Positions 31,636 to 41,527 of a stretch of 64,000 nucleotides of DNA are shown here, one piece after another. Position 1 is the stretch's first letter. Each line of letters opens with the position of its first letter. The notes under the pieces were generated by a model. It ran no database searches, was not told where the DNA came from, and saw nothing but the letters and a program-made list of their open reading frames with translations. The stretch comes from Haladaptatus caseinilyticus (GTDB taxonomy: Archaea > Halobacteriota > Halobacteria > Halobacteriales > Haladaptataceae). The stretch is taken from contig NZ_CP111036.1 of assembly GCF_026248685.1 (NCBI RefSeq), forward strand, positions 1,550,001 to 1,614,000, given 5' to 3'. The translations under genes were made by a program, and so were the position numbers.

Positions 31636-32934
31636 CTACGGACTCAATCGCTGTCGGTCTCGTGGGAACAACACGGCCTCGCGGATGTTGTCCAGTCCGA
31701 GCATCGTCATGATGAGACGCTCGCCACCGAGACCCCAACCGGCGTGTGGCGGCATGCCGTATTTGAACATCTTCGTGTAGTAATCGAAGGCCTCGGGGTC
31801 GAGACCTTGCTGTTCGAAGCCGTCCACGAGTTTCTCGTAGCGGTGTTCACGTTGCCCACCCGAGACGAGTTCCATGCGTGGATGCATCATGTCGAACCCG
31901 GTCGAGAGCTCCTCGTCGTCGTCGTGGTCCTTGATGTAGAACGGTTTGATCTCGCTCGGCCAGTCGGTGATGAAGTAGTGCGTTCCGACATCTTCGCCGA
32001 GTGCCTTCTCACCCTCGGTCGGTAGGTCGTCGCCCCAGACGAGCATCTCGTCCAGTTCACCGGTCGCGTTGATTCGTTCGATTGCCTCCTCGTAGGTCAG
32101 CCGTGGGAAGTCGCCGTCCGGTACTTCGAAATCGACATCGAGTGCGTCGAGTTCGTCCTGGCAGTTCTCGGCGACGGCCTCATATGCCGCTTTGACGACC
32201 GATTCACACGCGTCCATCGCTTCTTCGTGGTTGTAGAACGCGCTCTCGAAGTCGATGCTGGTCGCTTCGTTCAGGTGGCGCGGCGTGTTGTGCTCTTCTG
32301 CACGGAAGATCGGACCGATTTCGAACACGCGTTCCAATCCGCTGCCGACCATCAGCTGTTTGAACAGCTGTGGGGACTGGTTCATGAACGCCTCCTCGCC
32401 GAAGTAGGTGATGGGGAACAGTTCCGTTCCACCTTCCGTCCCGGTTGCCACTATTTTTGGCGTGTTGATTTCGCTGCATCCGAGTTCTCGGAACTGCTCG
32501 CGGACGGCGCGAAGCACTTCGCCGCGAATCTTGAACACGGCTTCCACGTCGCCTTTTCGTGCGTCGAGGGTCCGGTTGTCGAGTCGGGTCGAGAGGTCGG
32601 CATCGACCTTTCCACTGGGGTCGAGCGGCAGTTCGGGTTCCGCGGACGCGATGACCTCCACGTCCGTCGGGACGATTTCGACGTCCGTCGGAGCGCGGGG
32701 TTCCTCTTTCACGTCGCCCGTTATCTGAACGACGCTCTCTCGGTTGACGCCGAGTCCGGTTTCGACGAGGTCGTCGTCCATCTCGTCCTTCTCGAACTTG
32801 ACCTGAATCTTGCCCGTCGTGTCGCGGACGATGATGAATGCGATTCCACCGAGGTCACGGATTTCGTGTACCCAGCCGGCCACCGTGACGGTGTCACCGG
32901 GTTCGGCATCCGCAGTGTAGGTTCGGTTCTGCAT
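31636..32934 (-). CDS. aspS: Aspartyl-tRNA synthetase
   Basis: This class II enzyme charges tRNA with aspartate. The 432 residues have an N-terminal OB fold (residues 1-100). The catalytic domain then carries motif 2 [17 protein letters not shown] near residue 215 and motif 3 GLGGERLIM near residue 405. Archaeal AspRS may or may not discriminate between tRNA-Asp and tRNA-Asn; the sequence alone does not tell me which. GatB at 44-45.7 kb can amidate misacylated products. Confidence 0.96.
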
Positions 32935-33005: not shown

Positions 33006-33617
33006 TCAGTCCTGGCGCGTCAATCCCGCAGCGATGGTCTCGATGAGCATGTCGCGGACGGCGGGATAGTACTCCTCACCGAACTGTTCACGATACGGCG
33101 GGATGAACTTCACCGCGCCCATCGTGCCGGCGATGGCGACGGGGTCGCCATCGCGAACGTCCCCTTCCGCTTGCCACTTCTCGATGTACGGCACTACGTA
33201 CGCCAACGAGTCAGCACGCCGTATCTCCATTTCCCCCTCCGGAACGTCGTCCATCGCGCGCATCATCCCCTCCAATTCGTCGCCCGCCAACAACTGCCGA
33301 AACAGCTGGTTTTCCTCCATCGTCTCCACCAACCCACCGAGGAATTTCCGAATCGCTCGTTCCGGATCCGCCTCCGCCCCGAGCGAGTTTGCGACCAACT
33401 CGTCCGCGACTTCGTGACCTTCCGCTTGGATGACTTCGAAATACAGTGACTCCTTCGAGTCGAAAAACTGGTAAAACGTCCCGTTTGCGATACCGACAGC
33501 ATCCGTGAGGTCGGCAATCGTCGTTTTCCGGAGGCCGTACTGAGCGAACAGATCACGACCCGCTTCGATCAGCTCGTGACGGATCCGTTCGCGCTCCTCT
33601 TCGTCGAACCCTCTCAT
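33006..33617 (-). CDS. TetR family regulator of the ABC exporter operon
   Basis: The 203 residues start with a TetR helix-turn-helix (IRHELIEAGRDLFAQYGLRKTT and IADLTDAVGIANGTFYQFFDSK, residues 12-55) and carry an all-helical ligand domain. The ATG at 33617 overlaps the permease stop by ATGA, so it is the third gene of the ABC operon. TetR proteins usually repress their own operon. The double 16-bp palindrome at 35307-35345 is the likely binding site. Confidence 0.9.
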   Translation of the reverse strand: MRGFDEEERERIRHELIEAGRDLFAQYGLRKTTIADLTDAVGIANGTFYQFFDSKESLYFEVIQAEGHEVADELVANSLGAEADPERAIRKFLGGLVETMEENQLFRQLLAGDELEGMMRAMDDVPEGEMEIRRADSLAYVVPYIEKWQAEGDVRDGDPVAIAGTMGAVKFIPPYREQFGEEYYPAVRDMLIETIAAGLTRQD

Positions 33618-34405
33618 CGGACGTCCCTCCGTTGGAAAAGGTACACGCTCACTGACACGAGTATCACAGTTCCGATGAGTAACACGGCTACGCCGGTCCA
33701 ATCGTATTCACCGCTCACGAGGATCGCAGTCGGGTCGTAGTATTGGGTCGGACTCAGTCCGCCGACCCAATCCATCCCCGCCGACTCGCCGATCGAGTCG
33801 AGTAAGAACAGACCGAACACCGCACCGAGTCCACCACGCTGTGCGAGGTCCGTTTTTCCTGCGACGACGGATAGAAGGAGTCCGATCGCACCGCAGGCAA
33901 GTAGGTACGGAATCGACAGCAGATGGACCATCACCAAGTCGGTCACGTCGATCGATTCGCCGACCAGTACGACGCCGAGGAAGACGGCGACCGGTACGGC
34001 GACGTTCACCACCAGTATCGGCGTGCCGAGCGAGCAGAACTTCTCGATGACCACGGTCGTTCGGCTGATTGGTGTGGCGAGGAGGATGTCCATCCGGCCG
34101 CGCTCCTCGTCCCCCGCGATGAGTGCTCCCGCGACGTAGGCGACGTAGACGCCGAGAAGCAGGAGCCAGAAAAACTGATACATTTCGATCGCCAGAAAAC
34201 CCTCTATCGTCGTCAGCGAGGCCTCCCCGAACGTCGCCTGTAGTGCAGGTGGCATACTCTCGAGATAGGCGTCCAAATCGACGCCGGAGTTCGTCACCGA
34301 GGGGAAAAATCCGATAAACAGGAGCGACATCAGGGCGAGCAGTCCGCCAAGCGCCAGCGACCCTCGAACACGCCTTTTCCCCTCGTATCGAGCGATTTCA
34401 AACAT
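33614..34405 (-). CDS. ABC-2 type permease
   Basis: The 263 residues have about six hydrophobic segments, starting with GSLALGGLLALMSLLF near residue 16, and match the ABC-2 permease form. A periplasm-facing acidic loop follows the first segment. It overlaps the ATPase gene by 8 bases and the TetR gene by 4 bases, so all three are co-translated. The exported compound is not known. Confidence 0.87.
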   Translation of the reverse strand: MFEIARYEGKRRVRGSLALGGLLALMSLLFIGFFPSVTNSGVDLDAYLESMPPALQATFGEASLTTIEGFLAIEMYQFFWLLLLGVYVAYVAGALIAGDEERGRMDILLATPISRTTVVIEKFCSLGTPILVVNVAVPVAVFLGVVLVGESIDVTDLVMVHLLSIPYLLACGAIGLLLSVVAGKTDLAQRGGLGAVFGLFLLDSIGESAGMDWVGGLSPTQYYDPTAILVSGEYDWTGVAVLLIGTVILVSVSVYLFQRRDVR

Positions 34406-35282
34406 GCGCTTCCTCGCCGTAGAACCGCATGAACACTTCGTCGAGCGGCGCTTCTTCCACGTCTAGATCTATTAACTGATACTGGTCGAGCTGGTCGATG
34501 AGCGTGTCGTACTCCCCGGTAAAGGTGAATCGAACCTCGCCGTCCACGCTGAGGTCGTGAACTCCCGCAAAGTCGAAGTCGCTCGGTTCGACAGGTTTCG
34601 CTGTTCGCACTCTGACGCGCTTGCCACTTCTATCGAGCAGCGTCTCCACGTCTTCGGTCGTGACGAGTCGTCCGTCGCGGATGATGCCGACCCTGTCACA
34701 TACCTTGCGGACTTCGCTCAGGATGTGACTGGAGAAGAAAACCGTCGTTCCCGTCCCCTGCTCTGCCTGGACGAAATCGTAGAACCGGTCCTGCATCAGC
34801 GGGTCGAGTCCCGACGTCGGTTCGTCCATGATCACGAGGTCGGGGTCGTGCATGAACGCCGAGATGATGGCGAGTTTCTGCTTGTTTCCGCGCGAGTACT
34901 CCTCGATCTTTCGGTCGATGGGGGGGTCGAACAGTTCGAGCAGTTCGGCGCGTCGCTCGTCACCCTTCAACGACGCCTGATAGTCCAGAAACCGTTCTCC
35001 GGTCGTTCCCTCGTCGAACCCGGGATCGCTAGGGAGGTAACCGATTCGACGTTTGGCTTCGATGAGGTCGGTTTCGCTCGCGACATCTCGGCCGAGAATC
35101 GTCGCATCACCTTCAGTGGGAGCGATGAACCCCAGTAGTGTCCGAATCGTCGTCGTCTTTCCGGCCCCGTTCGGGCCGAGGAAACCGAAGACTTCGCCCA
35201 CCTCGACGGTGAGGTCTAGGTGTTCGATACCTCGCGTCTCACCGTAGTACTTCGTGAGTCTGTTTGTTTCGAGTGCCGACAT
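34398..35282 (-). CDS. ABC transporter ATP-binding protein
   Basis: The 294 residues show Walker A GPNGAGKTT near residues 35-43, signature EYSRGNKQKLAI near residue 130 and Walker B LVIMDEPTSGLDP near residue 151. A C-terminal extension of about 80 residues with beta strands follows, as in exporters of the drug or polyketide type. It is the first gene of the ABC-TetR operon. The promoter lies between and beside two palindromes. Confidence 0.93.
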   Translation of the reverse strand: MSALETNRLTKYYGETRGIEHLDLTVEVGEVFGFLGPNGAGKTTTIRTLLGFIAPTEGDATILGRDVASETDLIEAKRRIGYLPSDPGFDEGTTGERFLDYQASLKGDERRAELLELFDPPIDRKIEEYSRGNKQKLAIISAFMHDPDLVIMDEPTSGLDPLMQDRFYDFVQAEQGTGTTVFFSSHILSEVRKVCDRVGIIRDGRLVTTEDVETLLDRSGKRVRVRTAKPVEPSDFDFAGVHDLSVDGEVRFTFTGEYDTLIDQLDQYQLIDLDVEEAPLDEVFMRFYGEEAHV

Positions 35283-35306
35283 ATGCTTTTCCGTATGGAT
35301 ACTCGT

Positions 35307-35322
35307 TTCATGAATTCATGAA
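35307..35322. promoter_or_regulatory. Operator 1 of the ABC-TetR operon
   Basis: TTCATGAATTCATGAA is a perfect 16-bp palindrome in the promoter region of the ABC operon, with an A/T-rich TATA-like element (rc AAATATTC near 35318-35327) at its edge. TetR repressors commonly bind palindromes of this size. Confidence 0.6.
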
Positions 35323-35329
35323 TATTTCG

Positions 35330-35345
35330 TTCATGTATTCTTGAA
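35330..35345. promoter_or_regulatory. Operator 2 of the ABC-TetR operon
   Basis: TTCATGTATTCTTGAA matches operator 1 at 14 of 16 positions and keeps both half-sites. The centres of the two sites are 23 bp apart, close to two turns of the helix, so dimers could bind on one face. Confidence 0.6.
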
Positions 35346-35455: not shown

Positions 35456-36178
35456 TTACGCCGATTCTAGATGCGCCTTCTTCGCGTCTCTCGCCCCTTC
35501 GACCGTCTCACGAACGGCTTCGACCCCCTCGTCGTGGACGAGGTCCCCGACGATGATGGTGTCCGCGTGCTGGGCCATCGTGTGCGCAGACTCGTAATCG
35601 TGAATGCCACCGCCGTAGAACAGTGTCGCCTCGTCCAGTTTTTCCTGTGCCGCGGCGACGACTTTCGGGTCGCCGAAGGTTCCGGAGTACTCGATGTAGA
35701 CGATCTCCTGGCCGTACATCTGCTCGGCGATTTCGGCATATGCCGCGACGTCTTCGGCCGACTGGTCACAGTCAGCGTCGGTGAGTTCGGCGACGCTCGC
35801 TTCCGGATTCATGACGATGTACGCTTCCGTCGTCGTCGTTTCCCAATCGACGTCGCTCGTCTTCACCCACTCCTTGTGGAAGCCGGTCATCCACGCGATA
35901 TCCCCCGCATTGAGCACGATCGGAACGAGATAGCCATCGAGCGCGTCATCGTCCACGACGACCGCTGGATTGCTCGGTTCCTGATAGAGCGCGACGTCGT
36001 ATTTCGCGCAGGCGTCGATGACCGATTGCATCTTTTCCCGCGTCATGTCGAGCGTCCCGCCGATTTCGATGGCGTCCGTGCCGGTCTCACAGACGTCCTC
36101 GAAGGTATCGTCACCCGCGAGGCTCTTGTCCGGGTCGAGTTTGATGATGTGGTTCCAGTCGTCCCAAGGCGCAGTCAT
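35456..36178 (-). CDS. Geranylgeranylglyceryl phosphate synthase
   Basis: This enzyme makes the first ether bond of archaeal membrane lipids from geranylgeranyl diphosphate and glycerol-1-phosphate. The 240 residues match the PcrB/GGGPS TIM barrel ([10 protein letters not shown] at the start, [11 protein letters not shown] near residue 34, [11 protein letters not shown] near residue 155, [11 protein letters not shown] near residue 184, [11 protein letters not shown] near residue 205). The ATG at 36178 follows a good ribosome-binding site (AAAGGAAGG); a TTG at 36193 is in frame but less likely. Confidence 0.92.
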
Positions 36179-36248
36179 TAGCCTTCCTTTCAAAACTGTC
36201 GGCTAAAACTGCTTCGGAACGCACTACCACCTTTTGCTTCAGTCGAGG

Positions 36249-39250: not shown

Positions 39251-41527
39251 ATGTTTGGTCCCTTCACACCTGCGGGCGGTATCGTACTCTGTGGGACGAC
39301 CGTCGGTGGCGCCGTCAGTTTTGTGCTCGCGCGACACGGGTGGTCGAACCGGGACGTCCCGGGTTCCGCATCGTTTGCGTCGCTCATGCTCGTTATTTCC
39401 GGCTGGTGTTTTCTCTCCCTGCTCTTTTTTACGGCTTCGGCACGCTCACAGGCCATTCTCTGGGGTTCGTTGATCGGGATCTGTGCGTCAACAGTTCCCA
39501 TCCTGTGGCTGAGTTTCACACTGGAGTACACCGGTCGGGACGATTGGTTGACTCCGGCCACGATGCCACTTATTTGGGCGGAACCAGTGATGTACACCGC
39601 CGTGTCGCTCCTCACCCCCGAACACGGGTTTGTCAACGAGAGCGCGACACTGGTATCGATTGGCGGCCTGACGACCCTATCAGTTTCCCATGGACCGACG
39701 TTCTACTTCCATCTCGCCTATCTGTTCGTGGTCATCGTCTCCGGATTCACGTTCCTCATCGTATTCCTCGCACAAGCGGATCGACTGTATCGAAGACAAA
39801 CGGTCGTGGTCGTCCTCGCGGGCCTGTTTCCGCTCGTCGGAACCGGCGCGTCGATGTTTGTCGCTTCAAACGCGGTTCTCGATTTGACCCCCATCTTTTT
39901 CGCTGGCGGCGGCATGTTCATCGCCCTCGCGCTTTTCAGATACGACTTTCTCGACGTAACACCGCTGGCCTCGGAAGTCGTGCTGTCGGAGATGGAAGAT
40001 CCAGTTATCGTCGTTTCTGACGGTCAAATCGTCGAATACAACCCGATGGCAGTGGCGCTGTTTGATTCACAGAACGCCATCGGGGAGGACGTCGAGTCCG
40101 TCCTTCCTGGCCTGCTCGATGCCGTTTGGATGGGGAAATCCTTCTCACCGTCACGACCCCAAGCGGATGGCGGCACGACTAACCGGGCTGTCGATGGTTC
40201 CGATGACGTCACGTCCAGTGGTTTCGTTGACGACCCTGTCGCGGAAACCGCGGTGTACGACCCGCGCTTGACTCCGATATACGACCATCACGGTATTCGA
40301 CGTGGCGACATCCTCGTTCTTCGAGAAATAACCGATCGAAAGCACCGCGAAGAGACGCTCCGCGCCCTCCAGTCGGCAACGCGTCGATTGATGGACTCCA
40401 AACACGAGGAAGAAATCGCACAGATCGCAGTCGAAACTGCGGACGAGGTATTGGATCATCCCTACTCGGCTATCGTTTTCCCCGACGAAAGCGAGACAAT
40501 TCTCCAAACCGTCGCCATGACGGGTGTGCTTGCCGACAGCACCGATGGTGAGATAACTTTTCATCGAGCGGATGACTCCATGTGGGACGTATTCGAGTCC
40601 GGTGTTCCGGGCGTCCACGAATCCCCAACTGAACTCTCTGAAACGTGGTACAATCGTTTTTCAGTCGGGTGTTTGCTGTTGTTCCCGCTCGGAGAACATG
40701 GCGTCCTCGGTGTCGGAAGCGACCCGAAAAAGCGGGCGTTCACCGATAACGACCGACGGTTTGCCGAGATTCTGGCGACGACGACTGAATCAGCACTGGA
40801 CCGTGCGCGGCGAGAGACGGAACTACGCGAAAGTCAAGCGATGGTCGAGAAGCGAAACGAGCAAATCGAGTTCTTCAACGGTGTCCTCCGTCACGATATT
40901 TTGAACGGAATCACGGTCATTAACGGTAATCTCGAACTGCTCGACGAACACGTGGGGACGGATGGCAAGCCGCATCTCGAAACCGTACGTGAATGGAGCG
41001 AGGATATCGGGAAGTTGACACAGAAAGTGCGGTCGGCCAGTCGGACGATTACGGATGCGGAGTCAATGCCGCTGACGACGCTTTCGCTCTCGGAAACCCT
41101 GTCCCGAAAAGCGACGAAGATACGGACGACGTATCCAAACGTCGAAGTCGAGGCTGATATCGAACACGACTTGTTCATATCGGGTAACGAACTCCTCGGT
41201 GAAGTACTGGAAAACGTCCTCCTGAACGCGGTCGAGCACAACGACCAGTCGTTTCCAACGCTCACTGTTCGGGCGTGGGGATCGGATGAAATCGTCCGAG
41301 TCGAGATCGAAGACGATGGCCCGGGTATTCCCGATGGGATGAAATCGGAGGTGTTCGACCGAAACGTCACGTCGGCGTCATCCGGCTCTATCGGTTTCGG
41401 TCTCTACTTCGTCCGTGTGATGATGGACCGATACGATGGCGATGTTTGGTTCGAGGATGCGAACGACGGCGGAACTGTCGCTGTTCTTACGTTCCCTGTC
41501 GAACCCCCCGACGCTCCGTTCATATAG
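39251..41527 (+). CDS. Membrane histidine kinase with 7TM, PAS and GAF domains
   Basis: The 758 residues start with a seven-helix membrane sensor (residues 1-225). A PAS-like region (about 240-365), a GAF-like region (about 385-530), a dimerisation helix with RHDILNGI near residue 548 (the phosphorylated histidine) and an ATPase domain (NVLLNAVEHN, DDGPGIPD, GFGLYFVRVMMDRYDG) follow. Haloarchaea use many kinases of this architecture. No response regulator is adjacent, so the partner is elsewhere. The signal is unknown. Confidence 0.92.
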   Translation: MFGPFTPAGGIVLCGTTVGGAVSFVLARHGWSNRDVPGSASFASLMLVISGWCFLSLLFFTASARSQAILWGSLIGICASTVPILWLSFTLEYTGRDDWLTPATMPLIWAEPVMYTAVSLLTPEHGFVNESATLVSIGGLTTLSVSHGPTFYFHLAYLFVVIVSGFTFLIVFLAQADRLYRRQTVVVVLAGLFPLVGTGASMFVASNAVLDLTPIFFAGGGMFIALALFRYDFLDVTPLASEVVLSEMEDPVIVVSDGQIVEYNPMAVALFDSQNAIGEDVESVLPGLLDAVWMGKSFSPSRPQADGGTTNRAVDGSDDVTSSGFVDDPVAETAVYDPRLTPIYDHHGIRRGDILVLREITDRKHREETLRALQSATRRLMDSKHEEEIAQIAVETADEVLDHPYSAIVFPDESETILQTVAMTGVLADSTDGEITFHRADDSMWDVFESGVPGVHESPTELSETWYNRFSVGCLLLFPLGEHGVLGVGSDPKKRAFTDNDRRFAEILATTTESALDRARRETELRESQAMVEKRNEQIEFFNGVLRHDILNGITVINGNLELLDEHVGTDGKPHLETVREWSEDIGKLTQKVRSASRTITDAESMPLTTLSLSETLSRKATKIRTTYPNVEVEADIEHDLFISGNELLGEVLENVLLNAVEHNDQSFPTLTVRAWGSDEIVRVEIEDDGPGIPDGMKSEVFDRNVTSASSGSIGFGLYFVRVMMDRYDGDVWFEDANDGGTVAVLTFPVEPPDAPFI

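Follow-up and report, generated by a model that had tools for sequence, protein, structure and literature searches.

The question at this locus is whether the palindromic DNA in front of an ABC exporter operon is the operator of the TetR-family regulator encoded within that operon and, if so, how such an operator is built. The window, by which we mean the whole 64-kb stretch of DNA that was analysed, contains the operon and its neighbours as follows.

31636-32934, downstream of the operon: putative asparaginyl-tRNA synthetase gene, taken by eye
33006-33617, minus strand: TetR-family regulator of 203 aa with an N-terminal TetR_N helix-turn-helix (PF00440, 47.9 bits; cut-off 24); its start overlaps the permease stop
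33614-34405, minus strand: ABC-2 type permease (PF12679, 73.4 bits; cut-off 27.2)
34398-35282, minus strand: ABC transporter ATPase (PF00005, 93.3 bits; cut-off 25)
35456-36193, upstream of the site: geranylgeranylglyceryl phosphate synthase gene (TIGR04147, 430.8 bits; cut-off 300)

The three minus-strand genes downstream of the site overlap at their ends (the permease/TetR junction is ATGA), in line with the ATPase-permease-TetR operon with its own regulator described in the first-pass annotation. An ABC_tran ATPase adjoins an ABC2_membrane permease, both above the Pfam cut-off, as in an ABC-2 type exporter. The operon resembles DrrA-type ABC exporters in that the best NCBIfam match of the ATPase is TIGR01188 (DrrA-type, E 3e-56) and the permease is of ABC-2 type; the ATPase differs in scoring 190.9 bits against a cut-off of 312.45, and by that rule it is not a member of the DrrA subfamily. 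By Pfam and predicted fold the regulator is a typical TetR protein. The predicted model (pLDDT 92.1, pTM 0.85) is all-helical with two domains, similar to solved TetR proteins; the best 50 Foldseek matches are TetR-family or similarly annotated regulators (e.g. 5wm9_A, TMq 0.75), and helix-turn-helix residues are invariant among 42 aligned TetR sequences. Autoregulated TetR-exporter operons are already a familiar kind, and this operon, its TetR and its operator are not described in the titles and abstract openings, mainly of open literature, among the matches listed. Elsewhere in the window, positions 39251-41527 of the plus strand hold a 758-aa frame that by eye resembles a membrane-bound sensor histidine kinase.

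There are two palindromes in front of the ATPase gene; the half-sites H1 to H4 that they hold are listed further below.

35307-35322, no strand assigned: perfect 16-bp palindrome TTCATGAATTCATGAA, holding H3, H4 and a non-conserved end
35330-35345, no strand assigned: imperfect 16-bp palindrome TTCATGTATTCTTGAA, holding H1, H2 and a partly conserved end

TTCATGTATTCTTGAA equals TTCATGAATTCATGAA at 14/16 positions and its own reverse complement at 12/16, and the two start 23 bp apart, exactly as had been claimed. The first is the sole perfect 16-bp palindrome in the window, which is unremarkable by itself because 100 first-order Markov simulations gave a mean of 2.03 per window. None of the 100 simulated windows combined a perfect 16-bp palindrome with a second copy, matching at 14/16 or better, no more than 40 bp away; the pair is real, beyond chance. 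A search of the genome for the 16-bp site had been proposed as a check; TTCATGNATTCNTGAA without mismatch is found at this place only in the whole 4.82 Mb. With up to 3 mismatches the shared 16-mer pattern is not significantly enriched in the window (5 matches against 3.2 expected; 23/100 shuffles reach 5).

Alignment of the upstream regions gives a different unit, however. The conserved pattern is TGAA-N4-TGAA-N7-TTCA-N4-TTCA, and the conserved unit, judged from the aligned sequences, is one 31-bp dyad built from the inner parts of both 16-mers. Its elements, together with the core promoter elements that it covers, are these.

35311-35341, minus strand: conserved 31-bp dyad AGAATACATGAACGAAATATTCATGAATTCA, proposed TetR operator, with 11-bp arms matching at 10/11 and 7 bp between them
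35338-35341, minus strand: H1, outer left half-site; AGAA in the window, degenerate; TGAA in the long register
35330-35333, minus strand: H2, inner left half-site; TGAA; short register
35319-35322, minus strand: H3, inner right half-site; TTCA; the first letters of the TATA-like box
35311-35314, minus strand: H4, outer right half-site; TTCA
35325-35329, minus strand: CGAAA, inferred BRE, in the dyad centre; matches the quoted haloarchaeal BRE motif
35315-35322, minus strand: TTCATGAA, inferred TATA box, its centre 36 nt before the ATG; the quoted TTWT motif is not matched exactly

The dyad lies over the BRE/TATA region, with both putative boxes called from the sequence. The haloarchaeal motifs are given as CGAAA for the BRE and TTWT for the TATA box in the part of PMC4983044 available, so the TTCAT of the window is only TATA-like. 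A sigma-70 promoter scan found nothing; that is a bacterial-type model and not informative for archaea. At the position of the box, L068, L072, L076 and L083 have TTTAT. The box centre lies 25-27 nt before the ATG, the spacing expected for a leaderless transcript, in 17/40 loci with a TetR match (4/19 in the family and 13/21 in other families); from the 36 nt in the window a leader of about 10 nt is predicted. In Haloferax volcanii 72% of protein-coding transcripts are leaderless, according to the portion of the source available.

We propose, with a probability of about 0.8, that the TetR encoded in the operon uses the 31-bp dyad as its operator and represses the operon by blocking TBP/TFB until a ligand relieves repression. 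The motif is very probably the landing site of the repressor because it lies on the promoter, is found again in distantly related organisms and tends to be degraded when the repressor gene is missing. A single TetR dimer would occupy the inner pair of half-sites, spaced 11 bp, or a pair of dimers would cover all four. As the operator lies over the core promoter, the simplest mechanism would be that bound TetR keeps TBP and TFB off, repressing exporter and regulator together. Repression would be relieved when the dimer is opened by a ligand, most likely the compound that the exporter removes, and newly made exporter and TetR would then return the operon to the off state.

Known TetR-family systems offer partial parallels. 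In the accessible text of PMC4150764, the proteins QacR, CgmR, Ms6564 and CprB bind as dimers of dimers to operators of 28, 32, 31 and 22 bp, compared with 31 bp in the window, and the recognition helices of QacR and CprB are 37-38 A apart, a distance close to the 11-bp spacing of the inner half-sites in the window. An exporter, in its case a multidrug exporter, is also under the control of QacR, and the dyad in the window is clearly longer than 15-17 bp, as a QacR-type operator is. In contrast with these four systems, the operator in the window sits on an archaeal BRE/TATA region and the regulator is encoded inside the exporter operon. Among the literature found, a native archaeal TetR operator is described only in the paper on FadRSa of Sulfolobus acidocaldarius (PMC6449355). 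FadRSa is likewise an archaeal TetR-family regulator with semi-palindromic sites, and the part of that paper available reports two stoichiometric binding modes that depend on the operator; the FadRSa-DNA complex 6en8_A is among the listed Foldseek matches of the window TetR (TMq 0.64). The same source describes repression of a 23-gene lipase/beta-oxidation cluster from four genomic sites, whereas the system in the window is an exporter operon with apparently one site per genome.

FadRSa also provides the precedent for a different mode of action, in which TetR binds without excluding TBP/TFB and either interferes with initiation further on or acts as an activator. At its own gene FadRSa binds on the downstream side of the start site, promotes the binding of TBP/TFB and exerts its repression at a later step (PMC6449355). 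The site in the window, unlike that one, overlaps the BRE/TATA region itself, and we consider such a mode unlikely here.

The reading of the dyad as an operator that excludes TBP/TFB draws on comparison with relatives. There is a TetR match in 117/293 genomes of the order, and 60 regions were fetched, 42 of them with an ATPase that is 50% or more identical. L069, L094 and L095 were left out of scoring, the ATPase start not being located, which gives 19 family rows (18 plus the window) and 21 rows from other families. Orthologues of ATPase, permease and TetR stand in the same order in 18/18 fetched family operons with TetR, with a pcrB match near 17/18 and a synthetase match near 17/18. The dyad of the 19 family operons with TetR scores 12-15 of 16 half-site letters; in 17/19 the score was unreached by 500 simulated sequences each, and L044 and L051 have p 0.004, all p-values being for a pattern derived from the same family rows. 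The other families are for that reason the more independent test, and here the dyad recurs before related operons in several families of the order, 13/21 dyads being unreached by any of 500 simulations. L056, L057, L060 and L067 score no better than chance among these 21 despite a nearby TetR.

In an alignment of 34 operons the half-site letters of the right arm carry 1.48-2.00 bits per column and the 17 outermost upstream columns at most 0.40 bits, values that are favourable because rows with a poor score or a distant TetR (L056, L057, L060, L067, L086, L092) were left out and L051 and L091 were anchored by hand. Part of the conservation of the right arm may be promoter, since the arm overlaps the TATA box. 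Just downstream of the operator, at about 35302-35305 of the minus strand in the window, a CGAA-like stretch is also conserved (columns 37-40, 0.71-1.36 bits).

The same alignment bears on the geometry that the first-pass annotation had drawn, namely two separate 16-bp palindromic operators, 23 bp apart, each taken by one TetR dimer. Both 16-mers in the window are palindromic, one perfectly, and TetR, SimR and DesT are known to place one dimer on a site of 15-17 bp (PMC4150764). The conservation of the pair in relatives, suggested as a check, was not found, however: the 16-mers are not kept as units, and the outer end at 35307-35310 (columns 32-35) carries 0.05-0.61 bits in contrast with the right-arm half-sites. 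At the other outer end, 35342-35345, two letters (TC) are kept in 23/34 and 28/34 rows, which leaves this geometry some room, but we regard it as distinctly improbable. The proposal that TetR binds and autorepresses at this promoter is itself favoured by comparison (conservation, near-exclusive occurrence and loss of half-sites without TetR); it is the drawing as two 16-mers that gives way to the conserved 31-bp dyad.

The right arm of the dyad hardly varies, and its strong left half-site occurs in either of two registers 8 bp apart. An exact TGAA stands 19 nt upstream of the right arm in 9/19 family loci and 7/21 loci of other families, and 11 nt upstream in 7/19 and 7/21, compared with 8 and 9 occurrences at all 84 remaining offsets summed. 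Both registers are present together in one locus, and the operator in the window is of the short register. This might mark a group of haloarchaeal TetR repressors with a two-register operator, in which the TATA-fused right arm is fixed and the strong left half-site jumps 8 bp between lineages, although we hold this tentatively and would sooner doubt it than rely on it. If it were true, the repressor would read the TATA box as half of its site, and a switch between one dimer and two overlapping dimers would be easy, with the helix-turn-helix little changed. The fusion of a two-register operator with the TATA box is the feature of this system that deserves the attention of specialists.

Operons that lack a complete TetR provide a further comparison. 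Among 28 family genomes, six have no TetR match and in G066 only residues 1-67 are matched, the frame ending at about 70 residues; no close orthologue of the permease is present in G017, G114 and G142, and G171, a genome 62% complete in which the ATPase start is missing, was not placed in the TetR-less group. Five operons without a complete TetR were scored. Three exact half-sites are present in 16/19 operons with TetR (missing in 3/19) and in 1/5 where TetR is absent or incomplete (one-sided Fisher p 0.014); the plain dyad score differs weakly (Mann-Whitney p 0.09), and these p-values are only a guide because the operons are related by descent and many forks of the permease tree are weak. The dyad is decayed in G136 (11/16), G058 (10/16) and G156 (8/16), with simulation p-values of 0.006, 0.12 and 0.83, and in the TetR remnant operon of G066 it scores 14/16 with H3 changed. 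The TetR-less operons stand apart within one genus of the permease tree, where many forks are weakly supported, and this suggests that TetR was lost several times. Such natural variants (two registers, TetR losses, remnants) would show how a repressor site decays after loss of its repressor.

A site kept without the regulator had been named as evidence against the operator, and one such case exists: G176 keeps a dyad of 15/16 with no TetR match in its genome. Weaker cases are G035, with a remnant of TetR and the site kept, and G066, with a remnant and the site slightly altered. The G176 site (L109, G176:C4:97218-97248) lies before an exporter pair near which neither pcrB nor the synthetase gene was matched, so the locus seems to have moved. 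In L223 (G035:C1:671000-678000) an exporter pair with an intact short-register site is followed by what by eye is only the start of a TetR gene, and no TetR match was found in the G035 genome. G176 could be taken to mean that some regulator other than the operon's TetR binds the site. We think this very unlikely, since 4/5 operons without a complete TetR have lost half-sites and sites of this kind stand in front of further operons linked to a TetR, among them the hydrolase-TetR pair of L058 and L063.

Within the family, the site is hardly found away from this promoter. A search of the 28 family genomes for exact three-half-site patterns gave 19 places, 17 of them at this promoter: 7 of the 8 short-register matches and 10 of the 11 long-register matches, the latter including TetR-less G176. 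The two remaining places are G082:C3:9292 and G190:C3:154059. In the 293 genomes of the order the short pattern has 23 matches (9 within 4.5 kb of a TetR match, one in G035, followed by orthologues of the exporter pair and a remnant of TetR, and 13 elsewhere) and the long pattern also has 23 (16 within 4.5 kb of a TetR match, one in G176 and 6 elsewhere). That the dyad is the core promoter only, its AT-rich letters palindromic by chance, is scarcely credible: the right arm is indeed a TATA-like box and a BRE-like motif lies in the dyad centre, but H1/H2 and H4 lie outside BRE and TATA and are conserved at fixed offsets, and each family genome has the pattern almost nowhere else. The dyad as TetR operator offers a precise candidate on a haloarchaeal promoter that is open to testing, and it could become a regulated promoter part in haloarchaeal genetics.

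With mismatches allowed, the own genome has 16 forward and 17 reverse matches to the 16-bp pattern (2 mismatches; 10 and 7 for the reversed control) and 15 and 15 to the 31-bp pattern (3 mismatches; 6 and 6 for the control), a symmetric pattern counting each place twice. We viewed C5:72752, C7:115486, C2:16619 and C6:395035 as candidates for a wider regulon, and none adjoins an ATPase-permease-TetR set; going by these four places no wider regulon is proposed, and the last three are not called targets. The first (G000:C5:72752-72782, L199:1501-1531) matches the 31-bp pattern except at two positions and lies about 140 bp ahead of a frame that by eye is an MFS-like transporter; it may be a chance match or a second target. 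No such dyad was visible by eye before the ATPases of nine permease paralogues (39-47% identity), 7/9 of which have no nearby TetR match; L114 and L116 have one of 32-33%.

Finally, 18 fetched loci have TetR but no ATPase of at least 50% identity. In six of these (L053, L058, L063, L078, L082, L087) the 1500 bp upstream contain a dyad that scores 13-15 of 16, a value unreached by 60 simulations per strand in a post hoc comparison, and the remaining 12 have 9-12 of 16. On the strength of these six, a related operator may be used more widely in this TetR group. In L066 (4495-7091) and L071, related TetR genes overlap a long gene with a PPDK_N domain, the frame cut by the locus end, that resembles PEP synthase and rifamycin phosphotransferase models below their cut-offs; no operator of the 31-bp dyad kind was found at these two loci. 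At L058:3482-3512 (G270) and the matching place in L063 (G197) there is a long-register dyad about 1 kb before TetR, an exact long-pattern match among the 16 near TetR. It precedes an alpha/beta hydrolase gene that overlaps tetR and has a weak NCBIfam match, below the cut-off, to RcgR putative lactone hydrolases, and the two loci may represent the same operator with other cargo.
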